Virus record (IMG/VR): IMGVR_UViG_3300022749_000029
Location: 1 to 32,557 of that record
Strand: one strand, 5' to 3'
DNA length: 32,557 bases
DNA from: a virus
The notes under the pieces were generated by a model. That model saw only the letters and a program-made list of their open reading frames with translations, did not search any database and was not told where the DNA came from. The position numbers were made by a program, and so were the translations under genes. Shown here one piece after another: positions 18,049-32,512 of the stretch (position 1 is the stretch's first letter; every line of letters begins with the position of its first letter).

Positions 18049-18561
18049 ATGGCGCTGCCGAAGATCCTCGCTCTCGACCTCGCCACCCGCCTCGGGTGGG
18101 CCTGCGGCTCTCCAGACGGCGAACCGACCTATGGCTCGAAGCTGCTGCCGTCGACCGGGCCCGAGATCGGACGCTTCGGCGACGCCTATGACGAGTGGCT
18201 CCTCGACATGATCACGCTGGAGAGCCCGGCGCTGGTCGTGTTCGAGGCGCCGTTCGTTGGCGGCACCGGCAACGCGAACACGGCCCGCAAGCTCATGGGC
18301 TTGTGCTGGCAGACCGAGCTCGCCTGCTACCGCCGGCAGATCCGGTGCATGGAGCACGGCAACACCAGCGTGAAGAAGCTCTTCGCCGGCAGCGGCCGCG
18401 CCGAGAAGCACGAGATGATCGCCGCGGCGCGGCGGCATGGCTGGGATCCGAAAGACGACCACGCTGCAGATGCCCTGGGCCTATGGGCATGCGCGGTCCA
18501 CGAGAAGGCGCCGAAGTACTCGCGCCTAAAGCTCGGCGCCCTCGGAGGCCGGGCGGCATGA
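18049..18561 (+). CDS. RuvC-like Holliday junction resolvase
   Basis: The protein has 170 residues. The RNase H fold acidic residues are visible: Asp10 in ILALDLATRLGWA, Glu66 in ALVVFEAPF, and Asp136/Asp137/Asp141 in KDDHAADALGLW. Phage RuvC-like enzymes resolve branched DNA before packaging. It is followed by the methylase gene with an ATGA overlap. Confidence 0.8.
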   Translation: MALPKILALDLATRLGWACGSPDGEPTYGSKLLPSTGPEIGRFGDAYDEWLLDMITLESPALVVFEAPFVGGTGNANTARKLMGLCWQTELACYRRQIRCMEHGNTSVKKLFAGSGRAEKHEMIAAARRHGWDPKDDHAADALGLWACAVHEKAPKYSRLKLGALGGRAA

Positions 18562-19124
18562 CGTGGCCCTTCGGCGATCTGCAGCCCTTCGGCTTCGACA
18601 TGCTCATGGTGGATCCGCCGTGGGCCTTCGCGCTGCGCTCCGAGAAGGGCGAGGCCAAGAGCCCCCAGGCGCAGTACGCCTGCATGCCGCTCGACGCGAT
18701 CAAGGCTCTGCCGGTCGCGCAACTCGCCCGCGGAGACGCCTTCCTCTGGCTCTGGGCCACCAACCCGATGTTGCCGCAGGCGCTCGCGGTGATGTCGGCA
18801 TGGGGCTTCACATTCTCCACCTCCGGCACGTGGGTGAAGACCACCTCTGGCGGCAAGCTCGCGTTCGGCACCGGCTACGTGCTGCGCAGCGCCTCCGAGC
18901 CGTTCCTGATCGGGCGCCTGGGCCGGCCGCGCGCCGGGCGCGCCGTTCGCAGCGTCATCATGGCGCCGGCGCGCGAGCACAGCCGGAAGCCCGACGAGGC
19001 GTATGCGGCGGCTGAGGCGCTTCTGCCTGGCGCCCTTCGCCGCGCGGACCTGTTCAGCCGCGAGACCAGAAGTGGTTGGGAATCCTGGGGTTCAGAGCAG
19101 GGGAAATTCGATGCCGCTGCTTAA
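18558..19124 (+). CDS. MT-A70-type DNA adenine N6-methyltransferase
   Basis: The protein has 188 residues. Asp-Pro-Pro-Trp at 19-22 (LMVDPPWAF) is the catalytic motif of MT-A70 methyltransferases. LARGDAFLWLWATNPMLPQA, an 'AWGFTFSTSGTWVKT' segment and a cofactor-site region follow in the family order. It should methylate adenine in phage and perhaps host DNA, as protection from restriction or as a regulatory mark. Specificity cannot be read from the sequence. The last 12 residues (WGSEQGKFDAAA) resemble the tail of the HNH protein encoded next, and local base use drops in GC there. This suggests that the HNH gene was inserted near this gene's 3' end. Confidence 0.85.
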   Translation: MTWPFGDLQPFGFDMLMVDPPWAFALRSEKGEAKSPQAQYACMPLDAIKALPVAQLARGDAFLWLWATNPMLPQALAVMSAWGFTFSTSGTWVKTTSGGKLAFGTGYVLRSASEPFLIGRLGRPRAGRAVRSVIMAPAREHSRKPDEAYAAAEALLPGALRRADLFSRETRSGWESWGSEQGKFDAAA

Positions 19125-21450: not shown

Positions 21451-22412
21451 TGGCCCGTATCCGCACGATCAAACCCGAGTTCTGGACATCGGAACAGGTG
21501 ATGGAGTGTTCCGCGAATGCTCGCTTGCTGTTCATCGGGCTCTGGAACTTCTGCGACGACGTTGGCCGGATGGCGATGTCGCCGAAGCGGATCAAGGCGC
21601 AGATCCTCCCGTCGGACGACGTTACGTCTTCTGACGTTCTTGGAATGCTCCAGGAATTATCTGCGAATGGCCTAATTCGGTTCTATACAGTTGATGGGAA
21701 AGACTATTTGGCCGTAACCGGCTGGCAGCATCAGCGTATCGACAAGCCGCAAAAGCCACTTACACCCGATCCGCCCGACCCCCATTCGCCGAACGATCCT
21801 GGAAGATTCAGCGCTGGAAGGGAAAAGGAAAAGGATAGGAAGGGAGATAAAACCGGCGGCGGCGGCTCACCCCCGCGCGAGCCCTTGCGCGAGGCCCCGA
21901 CCCGCCACCAGTCCGCAGCGGCCCCGGCGGAAGCAGGCGCCGCCGCCGCGCCGCCTACCGATCGCGAAACCTACGATCGCATCGAGCGTCGATGCCGGGC
22001 CTTGCTGCCAACCGACTGGGTGAATGACGCCTACGCCGGGCCGATGGTGAAGCTGGTGGCTGACGGCGCGGACCTCGAACGGGAGGTCGCCCCGGCCGTG
22101 CTCGATATCGTCGTCGGTCGTCGCTCACCGATCCGGACATGGGCACTGCTCGCCAACGCGGTCGCAGAACGGATCGCGGCACAGCGGAAGGTTCGGGTCG
22201 CAGATGGCCTCTCGGCCATACCGGCCGCACCAGTCGCCGAGGAGGACAAGATCGACCTCGGGTCGCCCTTCGGTCGCTGGCCGGAGACGGCGCTCCGTGC
22301 CGCAGTCGCCAAGCACCGCGAGATGGGTGGTTGGGTCGACCACGTGTTCGGGCCACCGCCCGGCCAGCCCGGATGCCGAATCCCGCCCCGCCTCTTGCTC
22401 GAGGCTGCGTGA
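21450..22412 (+). CDS. O/DnaD-like replication initiation protein
   Basis: The protein has 320 residues, with ATG overlapping the helicase stop. The N-terminus MARIRTIKPEFWTSEQVMEC and NARLLFIGLWNFCDDVGRMA are the hallmark of phage replication proteins with a DnaD/O-type winged helix (about 1-100). A charged linker (about residues 110-170) and a helical C-terminal domain (ETYDRIERRCRALLPTDWVN) follow. It should recognise the phage origin and load the helicase. Bases 21630-21720 and 21816-21852, inside the gene, are AT-rich or purine-only, like an internal lambda-type origin. Confidence 0.78.
   Translation: MARIRTIKPEFWTSEQVMECSANARLLFIGLWNFCDDVGRMAMSPKRIKAQILPSDDVTSSDVLGMLQELSANGLIRFYTVDGKDYLAVTGWQHQRIDKPQKPLTPDPPDPHSPNDPGRFSAGREKEKDRKGDKTGGGGSPPREPLREAPTRHQSAAAPAEAGAAAAPPTDRETYDRIERRCRALLPTDWVNDAYAGPMVKLVADGADLEREVAPAVLDIVVGRRSPIRTWALLANAVAERIAAQRKVRVADGLSAIPAAPVAEEDKIDLGSPFGRWPETALRAAVAKHREMGGWVDHVFGPPPGQPGCRIPPRLLLEAA
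21616..21852. other. Candidate phage replication origin inside the initiator gene
   Basis: This part of the initiator gene departs from local composition. GACGTT repeats and an inverted ACGTC pair occur at about 21617-21635, an AT-rich stretch runs to about 21715, and a 37-base purine run with only two T residues lies at 21816-21852 over the protein's linker. In lambda the origin lies in the O gene linker. I see no clean iteron set, so this is an inference. Confidence 0.35.
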
Positions 22413-22993
22413 TGGGCCGCCCGGCAACTCGCCCCGCGCCGAAGTCGGGAATTGCGCTGCGCTACCAGCGGCAGCTTCGAGAGGCGGCAGCGGCGCTCGC
22501 CGCCCAGGCCGGGCAGTTCCGCGAGATCCGGGCTGTGCAGGCCGGGGCAGTCGAGCCTGCGTCGACACCCCTGTCCGGTGCGGGAGACGGCGCTGCCGAA
22601 TCCGTCATCGGTATACCGATATCGGAACAAGATCAGCGGGTTGAGGTGGCGCCGGAGGCGCGGGTCAAACCCCGAAAAGCCGCCCGGAATATGCACGCCG
22701 CTATGTCGGCTGAGCCGGAGGCCGAGCCCTCAAACGTCCCGGCAAAAATTAGCGTGCCGCCGCTCCAGCCCGGCACTTGGCCGATCGCCGACCTCCGCGA
22801 AGGCCAGTGCCGATTCGCCTGCACGCCGCACGGCGCTCGGCCGGAAGATCACCGGTTCTGCGGCGAGCCGGTCGCTTGGAAGGGCGGCAAGCCAACCAGC
22901 TGGTGCCGGGAGCACCTGCCGGTGATCAGCGGCGCGCCAGGCCGATCGCCCGGTGGCGCCAGCGAGGCGGATCTCGAACGGGAGGCACGATGA
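22412..22993 (+). CDS. GcrA-like protein with only the sigma-interacting zinc domain
   Basis: The protein has 193 residues. The C-terminal part (about 121-172) carries [26 protein letters not shown] and [10 protein letters not shown], the Cys...FCG...(Y/W)C.xH pattern of the GcrA C-terminal domain. In Caulobacter that domain binds sigma70, while the N-terminal domain reads methylated GANTC. Here the N-terminus is an unrelated helical, then disordered, region, so DNA-reading is missing. The protein may bridge sigma70 to another DNA binder, or sequester sigma. It is encoded directly before the NusG-like protein and ~850 bases before a cluster of GANTC sites. Confidence 0.68.
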
Positions 22994-23820
22994 CCAACCG
23001 GCTGACGAAGAAGCAGCGCCAGAAGCTGAAGCGGGAGACCGAGGCCGCCCACAAGCGGTTCATGCGGCGGGGCGAGATCCTGCACGAGGAGCGGGCCGCG
23101 CGCGACGCGGCCGACGCCGCCAAGCCGGCCGAGAGCCCGCGGGAGCGCCACCAGCGGGAGCAGCGCGAAAAGGAGGCTGCACGGATCGAGGCGCGCCGCG
23201 CCGAGCACGCGCTGCCCGAGGGCAAGGTCTGGGCGATGGTCGAGGCCTGCGTCGGCCGGACCGGCGAGCTGTGCGAGAAGCTCCGGAAGGCCGAGATCCC
23301 GTTCTTCCGCCCCCGGGACGAGATCGAGCAGGTCCTGCACTCCGGCCGTGTCCGCCGGGTGCAGGTGGCGCTGTTCGACCGCACGGTGTTCGTGGGCCTG
23401 AAGGAGCGGGGTCAGCTCGAGGAGCTCGCAGCCGCTTACCCCTGGCTGATGGAGCGGCGGGTTTACGGGCCGATTCCGGGCATGCGCCACGACCGGGAAT
23501 GGACCTGGGACGTTGAGCAGGTCGAGCGCCGCGAGGTCGGCCGTGACGAGGACGGCAACCCGGTGATCCTGGCGCGCACCATTCCCGACAGCGAGATGCG
23601 CGAGTTCGCCGACGTGCTGATCGGCGCGGCCCCGCTGTTCGACGTGGATGCGCCCTACGAGATCGGCGAGGCGGTGCGCGTCACCGACGGTAGCTTCGCC
23701 AGCTTCCCCGGCGTGGTCGAGGAGATCGATGCCAGCCGCGGTCGGGTGAAGGTCGCGGTCTCGATCTTCGGTCGAGCCACGCCGGTCGAGCTGGAGTTCG
23801 GACAGGTCGAGCGGCAGTAG
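22990..23820 (+). CDS. NusG-like phage antitermination protein
   Basis: The protein has 276 residues, with GGAGG just before the ATG and an ATGA overlap. Residues 1-75 are a basic, charged helix. Residues 78-160 match the NusG N-terminal domain ([52 protein letters not shown]). Residues 226-275 are a KOW domain ([33 protein letters not shown]). NusG-type proteins ride RNA polymerase and control pausing and termination. As the last early gene, before the late block, it sits where lambda has Q and is the best candidate for the late-gene switch. Confidence 0.78.
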
Positions 23821-23830
23821 AAGTTTTCCA

Positions 23831-23862
23831 CAGACCCGGTTTGACTCCGGGAATCGGGTCTG
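23831..23862 (+). promoter_or_regulatory. Two mutually exclusive inverted repeats after the NusG-like gene
   Basis: CAGACCCG (23831-23838) can pair with CGGGTCTG (23855-23862). CCCGG (23835-23839) can instead pair with CCGGG (23847-23851). The two share bases, so only one can form. There is no T-run. It could be an antitermination or pausing element, or dyads for a DNA-binding protein over the candidate late promoter. Confidence 0.45.
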
Positions 23863-23869
23863 AATCTAT
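23841..23869 (+). promoter_or_regulatory. Candidate late promoter with three GANTC sites
   Basis: TTGACT at 23841-23846 is a good -35 box, with a weak -10 in the region 23862-23869. GANTC occurs at 23843-23847 (in the -35 box), 23851-23855 (spacer) and 23862-23866 (-10 region). GcrA-activated promoters of Caulobacter have CcrM GANTC sites in just these places. The promoter call is inference; the three sites are plain to see. Confidence 0.5.
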
Positions 23870-23946
23870 GGCCCCGCACCACGCGGTGCCGGACGACCGC
23901 CCCTTGTACTCCCCGTTTTCGGGTCGAAGGATGAGCAGGCGGCCCG

Positions 23947-23972
23947 GAGGGAGGTTTCGGACCCCCTCTTTG
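23947..23972 (+). terminator. Terminator-like hairpin upstream of the late genes
   Basis: GAGGGAGGT (23947-23955) pairs with ACCCCCTC (23961-23968) with one bulged A, a TTCGG loop and a following TTTGCT. It lies about 75-95 bases beyond the candidate late promoter, comparable to lambda tR', where paused polymerase is released by Q. Confidence 0.5.
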
Positions 23973-24009
23973 CTACGAATCTGCCCCCAGTCACGATGCC
24001 GAGGCTGCG

Positions 24010-24127: not shown

Positions 24128-24418
24128 CTATTGCTGCCCTGAGGTGGGCGGCATCGCTGCCATCAGAAGCTGATCGATAGTGTCGCGGAGGCTGGTCATC
24201 GCTCGCAGGCTGCCCCGCAGGTGAGCCGTGATCACGTGTTCGGCTGAAATCGTCCCATCGTCATTGGTCTGCGCGAAGACTTGCGCAGCTATTGTCAAAC
24301 GACCGACGCCGTCCATGGTGCCAAAGAACGGAACCTCATCGAAGCTGATGATGGGAGCGTGATCGGCTTCGACGAAGCTGATCTTCGGCTTCGGGGTGGT
24401 AGCGGCTGGCTTCGACAT
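24128..24418 (-). CDS. Possible moron gene on the opposite strand
   Basis: The protein has 96 residues, MSKPAATTPKPKISFVEADH, then APIISFDEVPFFGTMDGVGR and LTIAAQVFAQTNDDGTISAE. It reads as a coherent beta-rich soluble protein with a lower-GC composition than the neighbouring phage genes. It is the only minus-strand gene between the early and late blocks and has its own intergenic start region. Such inserted, opposite-strand genes (morons) are often expressed in the lysogen. I recognise no family. Confidence 0.6.
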   Translation of the reverse strand: MSKPAATTPKPKISFVEADHAPIISFDEVPFFGTMDGVGRLTIAAQVFAQTNDDGTISAEHVITAHLRGSLRAMTSLRDTIDQLLMAAMPPTSGQQ

Positions 24419-24508: not shown

Positions 24509-25108
24509 GTGCCCGTTAGCTTCGACATGCGGGAGTTCGAGCGGGCTGCCTCTGGCATCGGTGCCCTGCAGGATCAGATCCCATTCGCGCTGAGCCAGTC
24601 GCTGAATGATGGCGTCGATGCGGCTCGCGACTACCTGATCACGCACACGTGGCCAGCGCACGTTTCGGTCCGCGATGCGAACTTCATGAAGGCGTCGCTG
24701 ACCACTAAGGGCTCTAGGGCGACGAAGAAGAACTTACGCGTCGAGCTTTACGACAAGCTTGGACGCGGCCACCTGAAGCTCCACGAGACCGGTGGCACGA
24801 AGCGACCGAGCAAGTCGAAGATCGCGATCCCTGATCGCAAGCTCCTCGATAGGCGCACCGCGCGGGGTGTCCCCAAAGGCACGCGACCGGGCAAGGCCCC
24901 GAACACCTTCCGCAAGGGCGACGTGATCTACCAGGTCACGGGCGGCAAGAAGAACCGGAAGCTGAAGCTGCTCTACACGCTGAAGGCCAGCGCACCGATC
25001 AAGGGCGTCGTGCCTTTCCATGCGGACTTCGACGCAGTCATGCGCCGCGAGGTGGCGCGGTCATTCCCGAACCGGATCCGGGCGGCAATGGCGTCGAGGC
25101 GGCGATGA
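24509..25108 (+). CDS. Phage tail-completion or neck-like protein
   Basis: The protein has 199 residues from GTG at 24509 (ATG at 24527 is an alternative). It is basic: DQIPFALSQSLNDGVDAARD, LKLHETGGTKRPSKSKIAIP, VIYQVTGGKKNRKLKLLYTL and VVPFHADFDAVMRREVARSF. The order matches a family of alphaproteobacterial phage proteins that look like minor tail or head-tail closure proteins (compare lambda Z). It is unusual that it lies before the terminase genes, apart from the tail block. GC is lower than in the terminase genes, so it may have moved. Confidence 0.55.
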   Translation: MPVSFDMREFERAASGIGALQDQIPFALSQSLNDGVDAARDYLITHTWPAHVSVRDANFMKASLTTKGSRATKKNLRVELYDKLGRGHLKLHETGGTKRPSKSKIAIPDRKLLDRRTARGVPKGTRPGKAPNTFRKGDVIYQVTGGKKNRKLKLLYTLKASAPIKGVVPFHADFDAVMRREVARSFPNRIRAAMASRRR

Positions 25109-25305
25109 GCCTGTACGACGAGACGCTCGAACGCCTGATGGCTATGGCCGATGCCCTGGCCGTGAAGGGCTACGACAAAGACTGGCTCTGCCTTGATGGC
25201 GATGAAGCACATGCGGCGCGCCTCGACCTCGAAGCGCTTCAGCACGCGATCGCCATGATGAAGGATGAGCGGCGGCTGCATAGGAAGGCCGTACAGGCTA
25301 CCTGA
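25105..25305 (+). CDS. Small hypothetical protein
   Basis: The protein has 66 residues, overlapping the preceding stop (ATGA). MSLYDETLERLMAMADALAV is followed by an acidic stretch and LEALQHAIAMMKDERRLHRK. It is soluble and helical. It is coupled to the tail-like gene; function is unknown. Confidence 0.6.
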   Translation: MSLYDETLERLMAMADALAVKGYDKDWLCLDGDEAHAARLDLEALQHAIAMMKDERRLHRKAVQAT

Positions 25306-25325
25306 GCGCCGAGGCTGGGTTGCGA

Positions 25326-25357
25326 GGCAGGGAGGGCCCACGGCCCTCCAGCCTGCC
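25326..25357. promoter_or_regulatory. GC-rich hairpin upstream of terminase: terminator or packaging site
   Basis: GGAGGGCC (25331-25338) and GGCCCTCC (25342-25349) form an 8-bp perfect stem with a CAC loop. It is extended by GGCAG/CTGCC across a 3-base bulge. It lies in the only sizeable gap (25306-25479) before the small terminase gene, where cos or pac sites usually lie. There is no T-run. A smaller inverted repeat with GGGG/CCCC arms is near 25405-25420. Confidence 0.4.
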
Positions 25358-25479
25358 CCCGGCCCCACGAGGAGGGTGCTCAGTTCCTCGGGTCCTTCCA
25401 CGGGGGTACCACCCCAGAGGTAACGCGCGAGGCTCGGGCCTTTCCCAGCGATGAAACAGCGTAAGGGGACGTCAGCAGC

Positions 25480-26013
25480 ATGGCGACGGTAGGCCAAGCG
25501 GCGGCCCATGTGTTCCTTGCAGAGCGGAACTTCTACGAGCTGCTCGACCGCGGCGTCGTCGAACGGCAGCCCGCCGGCGAGTATGACCTCGACATCGTTC
25601 GCGAGGAGGTGATCCGGCAGCTCCGGGCGGCCGCATCTGGCCGCGAGAAGAAGCCCGGCGCGCTGGACGGCGAGTTCGAGAAGGCCCGCAAGGACAAGGA
25701 ACTGGCGGATCGCACCGCGCTGCAGAACGCGGTCACGCGCGGCGAGCTCGTCGCGATCGAGGAAGTCGGGAAGCAGGTCGAGCGCGAGTACGCTGTGGTG
25801 CGCGAACGCCTCCTGGGCATCGCCGGCAAACTCGGCTCGGACCTGACGCCGAAGCAGGTCGCGCGCATCGAGGCTGAGATCCGCGACGCCCTGGAAGAGT
25901 TGCATGACCCAGGCGACATCGCACGACGGCTCCCTCAGCCTGACGACGAGGCTGGCGAGGGCGAGGACGATTTTGAGGCCGCCGCCCCGGCTCGACCTGG
26001 TCGAGTGGGCTGA
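25480..26013 (+). CDS. Terminase small subunit, lambda Nu1 type
   Basis: The protein has 177 residues. An N-terminal winged-helix part (VGQAAAHVFLAERNFYELLD, then RGVVERQPAGEYDLDIVREE) is typical of Nu1. A coiled-coil region (EKARKDKELADRTALQNAVT) and an acidic tail follow. It binds the packaging site and the large subunit. Its 3' end overlaps the large subunit gene by 110 bases. Confidence 0.85.
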   Translation: MATVGQAAAHVFLAERNFYELLDRGVVERQPAGEYDLDIVREEVIRQLRAAASGREKKPGALDGEFEKARKDKELADRTALQNAVTRGELVAIEEVGKQVEREYAVVRERLLGIAGKLGSDLTPKQVARIEAEIRDALEELHDPGDIARRLPQPDDEAGEGEDDFEAAAPARPGRVG

Positions 26014-28045
26014 CACCTACCGGCGCGTTTCGGCGAAGAACTCTGCAACGCCGGGTCGGTGGCGCACGGCGGTCCAGCCCGCGGCGCTCGGCCCGATGCG
26101 GGCGGTCACCGATCCGGAAACGCACATCGTCACGGTGGTGGCGGCCACGCAGGTGCTCAAATCCGAGCTCCTGATGAACACGGCCTTCTATTTCATCCAC
26201 CTCGACCCCTCGCCGATCCTCTTCGTACAGCCGTCGCAGAAGGCGGCCGAGAGCTTCTCGAAGGAGCGCTTCCAGCCGACGGTCGCCGAGACGCCGGTCC
26301 TGCGCGAACTGATCAAGGCGCCGAAGGCCCGCGGCTCCGAGAACACGATCACCCACAAGGATTACCCGGGCGGCTCGCTCGACTTCGTCGGTTCGGAATC
26401 GCCGACCGATCTGGCCTCCCGCCCGAAGCGCGTGGTCCTGTGCGACGAGATCAACAAGTACCCGCCGAGCGCCGGCAAGGAGGGCGATCCGCTCCTGCTC
26501 GCCGAGGAGCGGGCGTCGACCTACAAGGACGTGCGCCGGCACAAATTCGTGCGGGTCTGCTCCCCGACGGTGAAGGACGCCTGCCGGATCACCGGCGAGT
26601 ACGAGAAGAGCGACCGGCGCCAGTGCTTCGTCGCCTGCCCGCACTGCGAGCATAAGCAGACGCTGGCCTGGGCGCAGGTCCGCTGGGTGAAGGTTCTGGC
26701 CGACGGCTCGGAGACCTTCGACCCGCCGCCGAATGCCGAGGTGGTCTACCACAAGGCCGAGACGGCGGTGATCACCTGCCGGGAGTGCGGCGAGCCCTGG
26801 ACCGAGACCGAGCGGCGCGAGGCGTTGCGTGCGCTCGAGCACCGGTCCGACTACGGCTGGCGGCAGACGGCGCGGTTCACATGCTGCGGCGAGGAACAGT
26901 CGCCGGAGACCTGGGACGATGAGGGCCGGTCGCGCTGCAGCCATTGCGGCGAGCGCTCGGCCTACGATGGGCATGCCGGCTTCCACGTCTCGAAGCTGCT
27001 CTCGGCCCGGCACCGCCTCGCCGACGTGGTGCGCGAGTTCGTGCAGGCTCGGAAGGATCCCGAGGCCCTGCGGAAATGGACGAATACCGGCCTCGCCGAA
27101 ACCTGGGAGCACCAGGCCGGCGAGGGCATGGACGGCTCGCACCTGATCAACCGAGCGGAGCCCTACGGGCCGGACGATCTCCCCGACGCCGTGCGTATCA
27201 TCACCGGCTTCTGCGACGTGCAGGGCGATCGCCTCGAGGTGCAGCTCGTCGGCTGGGGCCAGGACGAGGAGGCATGGCCCTTCCTCTACGAGGTGATCAG
27301 CCTCGACCCGGCCGAACCGCAGGCCTGGCGCGAGCTTGATGCGCTTCGGGCGCGGGTGTTCACGACGACGGCGGGCCGGAAGCTGCGCATCGCAGCGTTC
27401 GGCGTCGACGTCGGTGGTCTCAACCACGCGGCCCAGGCGGTCGCCTACTGCCGCCGCCGTCGCGGGCAACGGGTGTTCGCCACCATCGGCCGCGGCGGGA
27501 AGTATCCGATCTGGCCTATGCGCTCGTCGCGCTCGAAGGCCAACGACAAGATCTGGCTGATGGGCGTGGATGCCGCGAAGGATGCGATTTACGCCCGCCT
27601 GAAGATCGAGCCGCTGGCCCATCCCGAGGACGGGTCGGCGCCAAAGCCTCACCCGGGCCTGATCCACTTCCCGATGGCGGACGGATTCGGGCCCGACTAT
27701 TTCGCCCAGCTGACCGCGGAACGGCGCGAGGTGCGGCGCCGGCTCGGCCAGCAGGTGGTGGTGTGGGTCACCCCCAAGGGCAAGCGCAACGAGGCGCTCG
27801 ACACCTTCGTCGGCTGCCTCGCGGTTCGGAAGGCGCTGCCACAGCGGATTGAGCGCGGCCTCGAATACGGGGTCGGCAGTCCGGTCAATGAGCCCGCGGC
27901 GCCGCCGCGCCCCGCCTACGTCCCGCCCGCGCACGTGGTCGAAGCCGCGCGCGCCGCCCCCGAACAACGACGACCCGAGCAACCGCAGACCCGGCGGCCC
28001 GCGCAGATGCCGCGGCGTTCCGGCTGGCTGTCACCGAGGAGATGA
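25904..28045 (+). CDS. Terminase large subunit, lambda gpA type
   Basis: The protein has 713 residues, near the usual gpA length. The N-terminus is LDLVEWADTYRRVSAKNSAT. Then come a variant Walker A (AATQVLKSELL, 80-90) and Walker B with catalytic Glu (RVVLCDEIN, Asp181/Glu182). Cysteine pairs CPHCEHKQ and CRECGEPW follow, then a nuclease domain (DVDVGG-like, FGVDVGGLNH). It translocates DNA into the prohead and cuts the concatemer. The tail is disordered and Pro/Arg-rich. Confidence 0.93.
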   Translation: MTQATSHDGSLSLTTRLARARTILRPPPRLDLVEWADTYRRVSAKNSATPGRWRTAVQPAALGPMRAVTDPETHIVTVVAATQVLKSELLMNTAFYFIHLDPSPILFVQPSQKAAESFSKERFQPTVAETPVLRELIKAPKARGSENTITHKDYPGGSLDFVGSESPTDLASRPKRVVLCDEINKYPPSAGKEGDPLLLAEERASTYKDVRRHKFVRVCSPTVKDACRITGEYEKSDRRQCFVACPHCEHKQTLAWAQVRWVKVLADGSETFDPPPNAEVVYHKAETAVITCRECGEPWTETERREALRALEHRSDYGWRQTARFTCCGEEQSPETWDDEGRSRCSHCGERSAYDGHAGFHVSKLLSARHRLADVVREFVQARKDPEALRKWTNTGLAETWEHQAGEGMDGSHLINRAEPYGPDDLPDAVRIITGFCDVQGDRLEVQLVGWGQDEEAWPFLYEVISLDPAEPQAWRELDALRARVFTTTAGRKLRIAAFGVDVGGLNHAAQAVAYCRRRRGQRVFATIGRGGKYPIWPMRSSRSKANDKIWLMGVDAAKDAIYARLKIEPLAHPEDGSAPKPHPGLIHFPMADGFGPDYFAQLTAERREVRRRLGQQVVVWVTPKGKRNEALDTFVGCLAVRKALPQRIERGLEYGVGSPVNEPAAPPRPAYVPPAHVVEAARAAPEQRRPEQPQTRRPAQMPRRSGWLSPRR

Positions 28046-28551
28046 CCATGACCACGTCCAAGGCTGACTTCCAGGCGCTCGCCGACAAGGGCGCCGGTTC
28101 GCTCATCAAGGTGGGCGGCGTGTGGAGCTACCCCGGCGCGCCGGTGGACACCTCCGGCACCAACCTGCAGCTGCCCGTCGAGTACGTCTCGGACGCCGAC
28201 GTGCAGGAAGCCCTGCGCGATGGCACGCTCGTCGCCGCGGTCAACGATCCCTACGGCAACGTCAGCGCCGTCCGGATCGCCCAGGAAGGCGTGACCGTCG
28301 TCCCGGCCGGCCTCACCGGCACCGCCGAGATGGGCACCGAACTGCCGCCGGGCTCTCGCCCCAAGCACGACGCCGGCCGCCGGGTCGTGACGCAGGCCGA
28401 GGCTGAGCGGCAGACGGTCGCCGGACTGCCGGGCGAGGGATCGGAAATCCAGGGCCGCCAGTCGGCAGAGGATCCGAACCGCACCGATGGCCTGACCGGT
28501 TCGTTCGGCAAGGAGAAGACCCAGGACGCCGGCGCGCGTCGCGGCCGCTGA
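28042..28551 (+). CDS. Hypothetical late protein between terminase and gpW
   Basis: The protein has 169 residues from ATG at 28042 (ATGA overlap; a second ATG is at 28048). The first half is a small beta-rich domain (GVWSYPGAPVDTSGTNLQLP and VQEALRDGTLVAAVNDPYGN). The second half is polar and likely disordered. It may be an accessory head protein. Position is the only support for that. Confidence 0.6.
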   Translation: MTMTTSKADFQALADKGAGSLIKVGGVWSYPGAPVDTSGTNLQLPVEYVSDADVQEALRDGTLVAAVNDPYGNVSAVRIAQEGVTVVPAGLTGTAEMGTELPPGSRPKHDAGRRVVTQAEAERQTVAGLPGEGSEIQGRQSAEDPNRTDGLTGSFGKEKTQDAGARRGR

Positions 28552-28565
28552 TCCCGAGAGCCGCC

Positions 28566-28784
28566 ATGGCGCTCGACGTCGTCCAGACGCAGATCCTGAC
28601 CGCGCGGCTCGCCTCGATCGAGACCGCTATCGCGTCGGGGGTCACGCGCGCCTCCTATGAGGGCAAGTCGACCGAGTTCCGGTCGCTGGCCGAGATGCGC
28701 TCGGTGCGGGACGAACTGCGCCGTCAGCTCGGGCTGGCCAGCCGCGGCCGCCGCACGGTCGCGGGCTTCCGGTCTGGGTTCTGA
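28566..28784 (+). CDS. gpW-like head-tail connector
   Basis: The protein has 72 residues. LTARLASIETAIASGVTRAS, YEGKSTEFRSLAEMRSVRDE and a final RRTVAGFRSGF match lambda gpW in size and pattern (helix, hairpin, helix, then an R..GF end). gpW sits under the portal after packaging and stabilises filled heads. The order terminase, W, portal is as in lambda. Confidence 0.83.
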   Translation: MALDVVQTQILTARLASIETAIASGVTRASYEGKSTEFRSLAEMRSVRDELRRQLGLASRGRRTVAGFRSGF

Positions 28785-28787
28785 GCC

Positions 28788-30326
28788 GTGCAGCAGACGA
28801 ACCTGATCGACCGCGTCATCGGCTATGTGGCGCCCCAGCGCGCCGAGAAGCGGATCGCCGCCCGCCAGCGTATCCAGCGCATGGCGACCGCGCGTAACCT
28901 CTACGACGCCGCCACGCTCGGCCGCCGCGCGAACGGCTGGCGCCGGATCTCGACCGACGCCAACGCCGAAAACCGCTACGCCCTGCGCCTCCTGCGCGAC
29001 GCAGCGCGGGACATGGTCCGGAACAACGCCTTCGCGTTCCGGGCGAAATCGACGATCAGGCATAACGTCGTCGGCGCCGGGATCCTGCCGCAGGTCAAGG
29101 CGACCCGGCCCGAGCGTAAGCAGCAGATCACCGACCTGCTGAAGCTGCACTTCGACACCACCGATATCGACGCCGACGGTCGGACCAACCTCTACGGCCT
29201 TCAGTCCCTGGTGATGGCCACTGTCGCCGAGGCGGGCGAGTGCCTGATCCGCAAGCGGGTGCGGCGGACGACCGACGGCTATGCCCTGCCATTCCAGATC
29301 CAGGTCCTTGAGCCCGATTTCCTCGACACGAACTTCGACGGACCGCTCGCGAACGGCAACACCTGCATCCAGGGGATCGAGTTCGACCTGCGCGGCAAGC
29401 GCGTGGCCTACTACCTCTACGATCAACACCCGGGCGCCGTGTTCGGCGGTGCCGTGAGCCTTCCCCGCGGTCGGCGCGTCTCGGCCGATTTCGTCGCCCA
29501 CATCTACCGGGTCGACCGGCCCGGCCAGGTTCGCGGCGTCTCGTGGTTCGCGCCTGTCATGGTGCGGATGCGCGACTTCGCCGACTACACCGACGCGCAG
29601 CTGATGCGCCAGAAGATCGCCGCCTGCTTCGCCGCCTTCATCACCTCGGAGGACGACTTCGACGCCGGCGCGGCGATCGGCGAGGACGGCACGATCAGCG
29701 CCAACGACGGCGCGAGCCCGTACCCGGTCGAGAGCTTCGAGCCGGGCATGATCGAGCGGTTGCGGCCGGGCGAAGGTGTCGTTTCTCCGGCTGTTCCGAC
29801 CACGCAGGATTTCGCGCCTTACTGTTCGACGACCCTGCACGAGATCGCGGCCGGGCTGAATATTCCTTACGAGTCGCTCACCGTCGACCTGAGCGAGGTC
29901 AGCTTCATCAGCGGGCGGCTCGGTCGGATTGAGTTCCACACGTCGGTCGACGATTGGCGCTGGAACATGCTGATCCCGCAGATGATGGGACCGCTCACCG
30001 CCTGGACCCTGGAGGCGGCCGCCGTCGCCACCGGGTCGAGCGAGCCGTTCACCCTCGGGTGGACGCCGCCGCGGTGGGAGATGCTGGATCCAGCCGCCGA
30101 GGTCGCGGCCTCCAGTGCCGCCATTCGTAATGGCCTCACTTGGCGCAGCGAGGAACTGCGCAAGAATGGAATCGATCCGGACGACTGGCTGGCCGGCATG
30201 ATCGCCGACAACGCCTTGGTCGACGCCAACGGCATCGTCCTCGACTCGGATCCGCGGACCACCACCCTGCGCGGCGCCCAGCAGAAGTCCGACAACGCGA
30301 AGCTGCCGGACGCGCTCGCCCCCTGA
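28788..30326 (+). CDS. Portal protein, lambda gpB type
   Basis: The protein has 512 residues from GTG at 28788. WRRISTDANAENRYALRLLR, RDMVRNNAFAFRAKSTIRHN and VVGAGILPQVKA are typical of the lambda portal family, as are the later VSWFAPVMVRMRDFADYTDA and AGLNIPYESLTVDLSEVSFI. Twelve copies form the ring through which DNA enters. It follows gpW directly. Confidence 0.92.
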   Translation: MQQTNLIDRVIGYVAPQRAEKRIAARQRIQRMATARNLYDAATLGRRANGWRRISTDANAENRYALRLLRDAARDMVRNNAFAFRAKSTIRHNVVGAGILPQVKATRPERKQQITDLLKLHFDTTDIDADGRTNLYGLQSLVMATVAEAGECLIRKRVRRTTDGYALPFQIQVLEPDFLDTNFDGPLANGNTCIQGIEFDLRGKRVAYYLYDQHPGAVFGGAVSLPRGRRVSADFVAHIYRVDRPGQVRGVSWFAPVMVRMRDFADYTDAQLMRQKIAACFAAFITSEDDFDAGAAIGEDGTISANDGASPYPVESFEPGMIERLRPGEGVVSPAVPTTQDFAPYCSTTLHEIAAGLNIPYESLTVDLSEVSFISGRLGRIEFHTSVDDWRWNMLIPQMMGPLTAWTLEAAAVATGSSEPFTLGWTPPRWEMLDPAAEVAASSAAIRNGLTWRSEELRKNGIDPDDWLAGMIADNALVDANGIVLDSDPRTTTLRGAQQKSDNAKLPDALAP

Positions 30327-30340
30327 ACACGGACCACAGC

Positions 30341-32512
30341 ATGACCAAGCCACGCAGGCCCGTGAAGGGCACCGGCGCGCGCGCCGACATGCAGGGCACG
30401 CGCTCGCTCGTGATGAACGGCGAGCTGATGCTCTACGGCGTCGTCGACAGCTACCTCGACCCCTACGACCCGGTCGGCGCCATCGTGCGCTCGCTCGACG
30501 TGATGGGCTCTATCATCGAGCTTGCCGACCAGCCGCGGCTCAGCGTGCGGATCAACTCCCCGGGCGGCAACGTCATGGAGGGCCTGTCGATCTTCAATGC
30601 CCTGCGCAATGCGGGCAAACCGATCGACGTGCACATCGACGCCATGGCCGCCTCGATCGCCTCGGTAATCGCGATGGCCGGCGACACGATCACGATCGCC
30701 GACACCGGCACGATCATGATCCACAACCCCTGGGACGTGGCCGTCGGTGATGCCGAGGACATGCGCCAGCGTGCCGACGAGATCGACCGGCTGAAGGCGA
30801 TCGTCGTCGACATCTACGCCAAGCGCACCGGGCTCGACCCGGCCGAGATCGACGCGATGATGACCGCTGAGACCTTCATGTCGGCGGACGATGCGGTCGC
30901 GCGCGGCTTCGCCGACGAGGTCGAGCAGGGCTTGGCAATCGCCGCGTGCGCGCGGCTCACCCGAGAGGATCTGGGACGTCTCAACGCCCCGGTGTCGGCC
31001 CGCGCGGCGCGCGGCTCGACCGTCACGGCTGCCGCCCCGGCGGTGCAGCCTCAACCTGCGGCCCCCGCCGCGCCCCCCGAGGAGAAGCCCGCGATGGCTG
31101 ACAACACCCCCGCCGGCGGCTCCGCTGCTCCGGCCGTTCCCGTGCATACCCCGGTCCCCGCTCCGGCGCCGGCCGTCGATCAGGGCGCGCTGCGCCGCGA
31201 GGCGACTGAGGCCGAGCGCGGCCGCGTCACCGGCATCCTGGCCGCGGCCCGCTCCGCGCGCTTGGATCCGACCGACGCCTTCGTCACCGGGCTGATCCAG
31301 AAAAGCATCGACCTGCAGGCGGCCCGCAGTGCCATCCTCGACCGCTGGTCCGAGACGCAGAACGCCCGGGTGGACAACCCGGCCGGCGGCGAGCGCCCCT
31401 CTGGCATCGAGGTCCAGGCCGACGCGGTCGACCGCTGGGCCGAGGGCGCCGAGCGCGGCCTTCTGATCCGCACGGGCCTCGCCCGCGCTGAGGACAAGGA
31501 CCGCGGCAACGAGTTCGTCGGCCTGACCCTGGCCGAGCTCGCCCGCTCCTCGCTGACCGTCCGCAACATGAAGTCCGGCGGCGAGAACCGCATGGCCATG
31601 GTCGGCCGCGCCTTCACCGTCCGCAACAGCGGCCCCGGCTTCCACTCGACCTCGGATTTCCCGAGCATCCTTCAGAACGTAGCCTACCGCGCCGTGCTGA
31701 AGGGCTACCAGGAGGTCGACGAGACCTTCCCGCTCTGGACCGGCAAGGGTACCGCGTCGGACTTCCGCCCGATCTCCCGCGTCGACATGGGCCTGTTCCC
31801 GTCGCTCGGGAAGGTCGAGGAGGGCGCCGAGTACACCTACGCCACCATGGGCGACACCGGCACCGTGGTGCAGGTCGCGACCTACGGGCGCCTCTTCGCC
31901 ATCACCCGGCAGGCGATCATCAACGACGACCTGCAGTTCTTCCAGCGGGTGCCGGAGCGGATGGGCCGGGCTGCCAAGCGCACGATCGGGAATCTCGTCT
32001 ACGCGGTGCTGAACGGCAACCCGACCATGCAGGACGGCGTCGCCCTGTTCAACGCGGCGCACGGCAACCTCGCCACGGTGGCAGGCGTCCCGAACGTCAC
32101 CAACCTGGCGGCCGCCATGGCGGCCATGCAGGTGCAGACGGACACGAGCGGAATCGGCACCGGCGGCGGCGTCATGCCGAAGTTCGTGCTGACACCGCCC
32201 GCCCTGTGGATGCCGGCCAAGGTGGCGATCACCTCAGCGAACTACCCGGGCGACCCCGCCTCGGTGGCCAACCCGATCCGGGACATGTTCACCCCGATCG
32301 CCGACAGTCGCCTGAGCGGCACGTCCTGGTACATGGCGGCGGATCCGAACCAGCAGGACACGATCGAGGTGACCTACCTCGACGGCGTCGAGGAGCCCTT
32401 CCTCGACCAGAAGGACGGCTGGACGGTCGACGGCACCGAGATGAAGGTCCGGATCGACGCGGGCGTGAAGGCGCTCCACTGGCGCGGCCTCTACCGCAAC
32501 GTCGGCGCCTGA
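30341..32512 (+). CDS. Prohead protease, scaffold and major capsid in one polypeptide
   Basis: The protein has 723 residues. Residues 25-200 are a ClpP/S49-like protease with INSPGGNVMEGLSIFNALRN, nucleophile Ser105 (AMAASIASVIAMAGD) and His128 (GTIMIHNPW). Residues 215-285 form a Pro/Ala-rich linker. About 285-375 is a helical, scaffold-like part. From about 380 to the end is an HK97-fold capsid (GKGTASDFRPISRVDMGLFP, YGRLFAITRQAIINDDLQFF, LTPPALWMPAKVAI). Such protease-capsid fusions are known in some phages. An internal ATG at 31094 with GAGGAG 9 bases upstream could give a protease-free form. Confidence 0.9.
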   Translation: MTKPRRPVKGTGARADMQGTRSLVMNGELMLYGVVDSYLDPYDPVGAIVRSLDVMGSIIELADQPRLSVRINSPGGNVMEGLSIFNALRNAGKPIDVHIDAMAASIASVIAMAGDTITIADTGTIMIHNPWDVAVGDAEDMRQRADEIDRLKAIVVDIYAKRTGLDPAEIDAMMTAETFMSADDAVARGFADEVEQGLAIAACARLTREDLGRLNAPVSARAARGSTVTAAAPAVQPQPAAPAAPPEEKPAMADNTPAGGSAAPAVPVHTPVPAPAPAVDQGALRREATEAERGRVTGILAAARSARLDPTDAFVTGLIQKSIDLQAARSAILDRWSETQNARVDNPAGGERPSGIEVQADAVDRWAEGAERGLLIRTGLARAEDKDRGNEFVGLTLAELARSSLTVRNMKSGGENRMAMVGRAFTVRNSGPGFHSTSDFPSILQNVAYRAVLKGYQEVDETFPLWTGKGTASDFRPISRVDMGLFPSLGKVEEGAEYTYATMGDTGTVVQVATYGRLFAITRQAIINDDLQFFQRVPERMGRAAKRTIGNLVYAVLNGNPTMQDGVALFNAAHGNLATVAGVPNVTNLAAAMAAMQVQTDTSGIGTGGGVMPKFVLTPPALWMPAKVAITSANYPGDPASVANPIRDMFTPIADSRLSGTSWYMAADPNQQDTIEVTYLDGVEEPFLDQKDGWTVDGTEMKVRIDAGVKALHWRGLYRNVGA
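31094..32512 (+). other. Possible nested product: scaffold and capsid without protease
   Basis: ATG at 31094 (Met252 of the fusion) begins MADNTPAGGSAAPAVPVHTP just after the protease domain. GAGGAG lies at 31079-31084. This is analogous to lambda Nu3, which starts inside gene C. Use of this start would give capsid in excess over protease. It is inferred from the ribosome binding site and logic only. Confidence 0.4.

Follow-up and report, generated by a model that had tools for sequence, protein, structure and literature searches.

What does a tight cluster of GANTC methylation sites do between a putative regulator gene and the packaging and head genes of a phage? We analyzed the whole stretch of 32,557 nucleotides of viral DNA in which this cluster lies (hereafter the window). 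A sequence-only reading of it had reported three GANTC sites within 24 bp and a fourth at 23977, and a check of the letters places all four exactly there: GACTC at 23843-23847 and GAATC at 23851-23855, 23862-23866 and 23977-23981 (starts 23843, 23851, 23862 and 23977), the first three together covering exactly 24 bp. The reading's expected frequency of about one GANTC per 300 bp is close to the value of about one per 330 bp given by base composition, which predicts ~99 sites in the window. The observed count is 40, and dinucleotide shuffles of the window predict 172; most genomes of the promoter-bearing relatives described below are GANTC-poor as well. When 40 sites were placed at random, so tight a triple arose in 1.1% of trials (probability 0.011, a figure for the window alone, with all other possible places to look uncounted). 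Judged from the window alone, the triple is notable and not decisive. The combination of TTGAC with a GANTC 15-17 nt further on occurs only once in the whole window, at this cluster.

The gene content of the window is that of a temperate phage, with an integrase and an S24-type repressor on the minus strand, followed on the plus strand by RuvC-like, MT-A70 methylase and DnaB genes. The genes that matter for the cluster are listed here.

18558-19124, plus strand: MT-A70 adenine methylase, between RuvC and DnaB.
22412-22993, plus strand: gene immediately preceding the NusG-like gene, with a Cys/His-rich C-terminal domain (about 22770-22930) and an uncertain start codon.
22990-23820, plus strand: putative NusG-like late antiterminator, 276 aa, with a C-terminal KOW domain (PHROG 6386 'transcription antiterminator', E 4e-20; KOW PF00467).
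24509-32512, plus strand: the whole block of late genes (Pfam and PHROG matches), to which the next five lines belong.
24509-25108, plus strand: tail completion/minor tail gene.
25480-26013, plus strand: TerS.
25904-28045, plus strand: TerL (gpA).
28788-30326, plus strand: portal.
30140-32512, plus strand: protease-capsid.

Membership of the 276-aa protein in the NusG family is indicated by the PHROG 6386 profile match and the KOW domain, both of which are present; the NCBIfam nusG model aligns with its C-terminus only and under the model cut-off. A -35 box begins 21 bases past the stop of this gene (23820), and the elements around it are as follows.

23824-23832, plus strand: DnaA-box-like element TTTTCCACA, just upstream of the -35 box, with the core TCCACA (23827-23832) fixed in relatives.
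23841-23847, plus strand: -35 box TTGACT (23841-23846), overlapping GANTC site 1 (GACTC, 23843-23847); TTGAC is kept in all aligned loci.
23851-23855, plus strand: GANTC site 2 (GAATC), which lies in the spacer and precedes site 3 by one helical turn; not fixed in relatives.
23861-23870, plus strand: -10 region TGAATCTATG, overlapping GANTC site 3 (GAATC, 23862-23866), placed by comparison of loci.

The good -35 box claimed by the sequence-only reading is present, but the accompanying -10 box is poor, and for this reason a standard sigma70 promoter scan called no promoter in the 23841-23870 region; the -10 hexamer (TGAATC, 23861-23866) was set by comparison with relatives and not by likeness to TATAAT. 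The setting, with the NusG-like gene before the element and a leader and terminase/head genes after it, makes the proposed assignment hold: the element at 23841-23870 is, with high probability, the late promoter of this temperate phage and presumably a working one. An 11-12 bp inverted repeat around the promoter (23831-23862) was set aside since it is absent from relatives, and an Rfam search returned no match.

Close relatives were first gathered by searches with TerL and neighbouring genes. In three of four, the NusG-like stop is followed by TTGACT and, spaced as in the window, an 'ATC' -10; they have two, one or no GANTC. An exact scan for the pattern TTGACTC-N11-TCTGAATCTATG found 14 stretches in IMG/VR, and the promoter motif pattern was absent from 385 alphaproteobacterial genomes. 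Because such a scan selects for GANTC, the search was repeated blind to the promoter, using the C-terminus of the NusG-like protein. It yielded 12 distinct contigs that carry the element in addition to the window, always at most 1252 nt from the NusG-like stop and at some loci behind an inserted small gene. Among these 13 loci, which were grouped for carrying the element and whose common ancestry inflates the figures, GANTC is present at offset 21 (in the -10) in 13/13 and at offset 2 (in the -35) in 12/13, the window included, and promoter GANTC is 47 times over background. L057 has lost the -35 site and has a spacer site. Given this inflation, it is safer to rely on the contrast with the spacer, drawn inside one set of sequences: column identity is 100% at G21, A22, T24 and C25, 72% at N23 (where only A or T is found) and 40% across the spacer. 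Moreover, the two GANTC boxes keep a fixed spacing of 19 bp, the inner pair is often 11 bp apart, and GANTC sites occur within the spacer itself (offsets 7-17) five times versus 0.27 expected.

Where a locus extends far enough upstream of the element, an HMM nearly always detects a NusG-like gene there. The terminase downstream is of the GpA type in the window and belongs to phrog_38, phrog_2 or phrog_9/7622 elsewhere, so the element appears to travel with the regulator cassette and not with one genome type or packaging module. The N-terminus of the NusG-like protein had no match in the 385 alphaproteobacterial genomes, a search of genome contigs gave no relative with the NusG-like protein and distant relatives only with TerL, and searches of plasmid DNA gave no close match. 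None of the papers searched joins prophage, GANTC and late promoter.

Conservation of the sites at the same position in relatives, by which the sequence-only reading could be judged, is thus largely borne out: it holds within the clade, but phages outside it lack the double site. In five phages (L028, whose TerL is 95% identical to that of the window, L075, L088, L095 and L106) the TTGAC element that follows the NusG-like gene has no GANTC inside; L027 has the spacer GANTC only and L064 the -35 GANTC only. Since the promoter of some sister phages does without GANTC, the sites are not universal and the architecture is wider than the GANTC feature. Rhizobial relatives keep AATC after the NusG-like stop, with the G lost in several loci. 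As the 'ATC' of the -10 is also partly common to phages without GANTC, some letters of the GANTC may simply belong to the core promoter.

These relatives bear directly on the strongest rival explanation, in which the GANTC sites are a by-product: TTGACTC and TGAATC would be the -35 and -10 preferred by host sigma70 in this clade, antitermination alone would control the late genes and methylation would have no role. It would account for the universal TTGAC of the aligned set, for sister phages that lack the -10 GANTC and retain TTGACT with 'ATC' at the same -10 position, and for the rhizobial AATC. It does not predict the variation at N (offset 23) amid invariant G, A, T and C, nor the excess of spacer sites, nor the retention of a spacer site in L057, where the -35 site is missing. 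In addition, the rest of the -10 (TATG) is altered in the two GATTC loci, so that little sigma70 consensus is left there. We consider this explanation rather unlikely.

A different, rhizobial-type leader follows the NusG-like stop in L071, L074, L079, L086 and L101 and has its own recurring GANTC. One such GANTC lies in GANTCAGGG, which could pair with an upstream CCCTGA and would then reflect RNA structure.

The likeness to GcrA/CcrM-controlled promoters noted in the sequence-only reading stands as regards position: relative to the -35 box, the window sites start at offsets 2, 10 and 21, inside the -35 to -10 region, as they do in such promoters. Caulobacter ctrA P1, podJ P2 and mipZ and Brevundimonas promoters share GANTC in or between the -35 and -10 boxes; mipZ has two neighbouring sites, and phage promoters of the window type have two to three, in and between both core boxes. 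A timed class of Caulobacter promoters is characterized by GANTC between -35 and -10 (PMC4287350), and changing GANTC to GCNTC lowers several promoters by 60-80% (PMC3667746). GcrA binds fully methylated DNA best, and for ctrA P1 it has been suggested that the half-methylated form is the active one (PMC3667746). The closest precedent is a 26-gene prophage operon of Brevundimonas subvibrioides (TerL GpA, portal and prohead genes), a late-type operon that is directly activated by GcrA and was left unexplained by its authors (PMC7987155). The extended GcrA motif YGAKTCK has no match at the window sites; GcrA of B. subvibrioides shows no preference for it (PMC7987155), so this motif is not a strict requirement. 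The window promoter nevertheless differs from those of Caulobacter and Brevundimonas in belonging to a phage, in being tied to a NusG-like gene and in not matching YGAKTCK.

Pfam searches detected no GcrA and no CcrM-type (N6_N4_Mtase) gene in the window, and no GcrA over cut-off in 17 records; we assume that the host carries both CcrM and GcrA, of which the scarcity of GANTC would be an indirect sign at most. Alphaproteobacterial phages are known to encode GANTC-specific methylases, among which PhiLM21_p027 is proven (PMC5537653). L045 and L049, both with a GANTC late promoter, encode homologues of it at 52-53%, located as follows.

L045 record, G390:C1:3124-3741: PhiLM21_p027 homologue.
L049 record, G392:C1:7115-7726: PhiLM21_p027 homologue.

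The MT-A70 enzyme of the window was rejected as a GANTC methylase, having no homology to the proven GANTC methylases of phiLM21 and phi3LM21. These two Sinorhizobium phages, which encode GANTC-specific methylases, share with the window the order DNA methylase, replication genes, NusG-like gene and terminase, but they have no double-GANTC promoter of the window type after the NusG-like gene (checked for phi3LM21). The Dam-dependent mom promoter of phage Mu likewise links phage transcription to host adenine methylation; it differs from the window promoter in relying on GATC, Dam and OxyR and in serving one late DNA-modification operon instead of packaging and head genes. Putative GcrA/CcrM control of the late promoter fits by position and has published precedent; dependence of the promoter on methylation is plausible, and half-methylated DNA as the trigger of late transcription is speculation.

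Downstream of the promoter, a consensus fold of eight leaders predicts three hairpins.

23876-23889, plus strand: predicted transcript start region and leader hairpin 1 (GCACC...GGTGC).
23909-23928, plus strand: leader hairpin 2, around the near-invariant GTACTCCCCG...GGGT.
23945-23972, plus strand: terminator-like hairpin 3 (CGGAGGGAGG...CCCCCTC, then TTTG), a candidate antitermination target.
23977-23981, plus strand: GANTC site 4 (GAATC), within the leader; many relatives have a GANTC near the corresponding position, with differing letters at N.

The transcript start was placed from the -35/-10 spacing. Hairpin 3 has a GC-rich stem followed by a T run, which is so short that the hairpin stays under the rule of a terminator scan. 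Covariation in the eight leaders is slight (5 compensatory pairs), and the structure of the leader, instead of methylation, may account for site 4. The arrangement resembles lambda Q, pR' and tR', where a regulator gene also lies directly upstream of the late promoter, followed by a terminator-like leader hairpin and the late genes; here, however, the regulator is of the NusG family (PHROG 6386/KOW) and not of the Q family, and the promoter carries GANTC. With the specialised NusG paralogs RfaH, LoaP and UpxY the window shares a NusG-like protein encoded beside a long operon with a structured leader, but the similarity of the window protein to them is weak, C-terminal only and below curated cut-offs. 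The setting of a late promoter with antitermination is well supported at the sequence level, and the NusG-like protein probably acts in the leader. A gate of the λ pR'/Q type is at least as well supported as GcrA/CcrM control.

We therefore favour, with confidence that is evenly balanced, a late promoter in a portable cassette whose GANTC sites in both core boxes allow tuning by CcrM and GcrA and whose output is gated by NusG-like antitermination. The parts of the cassette, in order, would be the NusG-like antiterminator gene, the promoter, a leader that folds and contains a terminator-like hairpin, and last the genes for packaging and head. Transcription would start near 23876 at modest strength and then halt in the leader; once loaded on RNA polymerase, the NusG-like protein would permit readthrough into the late genes, like Q at lambda pR'. 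The -35 and -10 would be retained as GANTC so that host CcrM methylates both, and host GcrA on sigma70 would read this methylation and tune how often the weak -10 opens, with methylated GANTC raising the use of the promoter. We infer that methylation and GcrA act on the promoter; because GANTC is kept in the core boxes while the intervening DNA has changed, virion production may respond to DNA methylation. Such a mechanism would offer an explanation at the level of sequence for the GcrA-activated Brevundimonas prophage operon and a reason for the GANTC methylases of alphaproteobacterial phages. If true, the epigenetic state of the host would set virion production across phages with different packaging modules.

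Two neighbouring features could extend this scheme. First, TCCACA occupies offsets -14 to -9 in all seven loci with native upstream DNA, with its flanks randomised, and L034, L039 and L048 carry TGATCCACA at this position, which is the Caulobacter DnaA G-box (PMC4285127). A phage DnaA C-domain was considered as its reader and rejected, being found only in phiLM21 and absent from the clade. Second, the Cys/His-rich domain adjoins the NusG-like gene in eight phages (the window, L025, L030, L038, L044, L045, L053 and L063; for example, L025 3489-3992, L053 824-1402 and L063 2032-2763) and had no match in L031, L032, L033 and L052, clade members with enough upstream DNA. Its profile aligned by hhalign with GcrA C-termini at a probability of 80% (E 1.4e-5; reversed control 0.1%), and at 57% (E 1e-4) with other alignments. 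The domain may correspond to the C-x-W...FCG...YCxxH sigma-binding domain of GcrA, for which an AlphaFold model (pLDDT 49.5) is too poor to judge; the 22412-22993 product has no Pfam GcrA match, and an N-terminal DNA-binding domain was not found. The possible resemblance to the sigma70-interacting C-terminal domain of GcrA is a lead only. A mobile cassette with three gates, namely replication-linked GANTC methylation with the DnaA-box-like element beside it, a phage-borne sigma70-binding GcrA piece and the NusG-like antiterminator, would let the replication state of the DNA decide when the virion genes are opened; we regard this version as unlikely.

The same features can be read in another way, in which a phage-encoded late activator or repressor uses the GANTC boxes as its operator and binds them whatever their methylation. 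The fixed 19-bp spacing with an inner pair often at 11 bp, the additional fixed TCCACA box upstream and the conserved Cys/His-rich gene next door would suit such an operator. But such an operator predicts neither that the boxes should coincide with the site recognized by CcrM nor that GANTC should be scarce in most of these genomes, and we hold this explanation to be highly doubtful. A meaningless chance cluster in a single phage could draw on the figure of 0.011 for the window alone, which leaves the other places to look uncounted, but it is refuted by the recurrence of the same offsets in 12 other contigs found blind to the promoter, with the spacer randomised.

Two further observations concern the surroundings of the promoter. 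A small ORF on the minus strand (24128-24418), past the leader and ahead of the first late gene, opposes late transcription. Small inserted genes, several with low GC3, separate the NusG-like gene from the late promoter in L043, L044, L045, L049, L052 and L053; they resemble cargo (moron) genes that share one fixed point of insertion.
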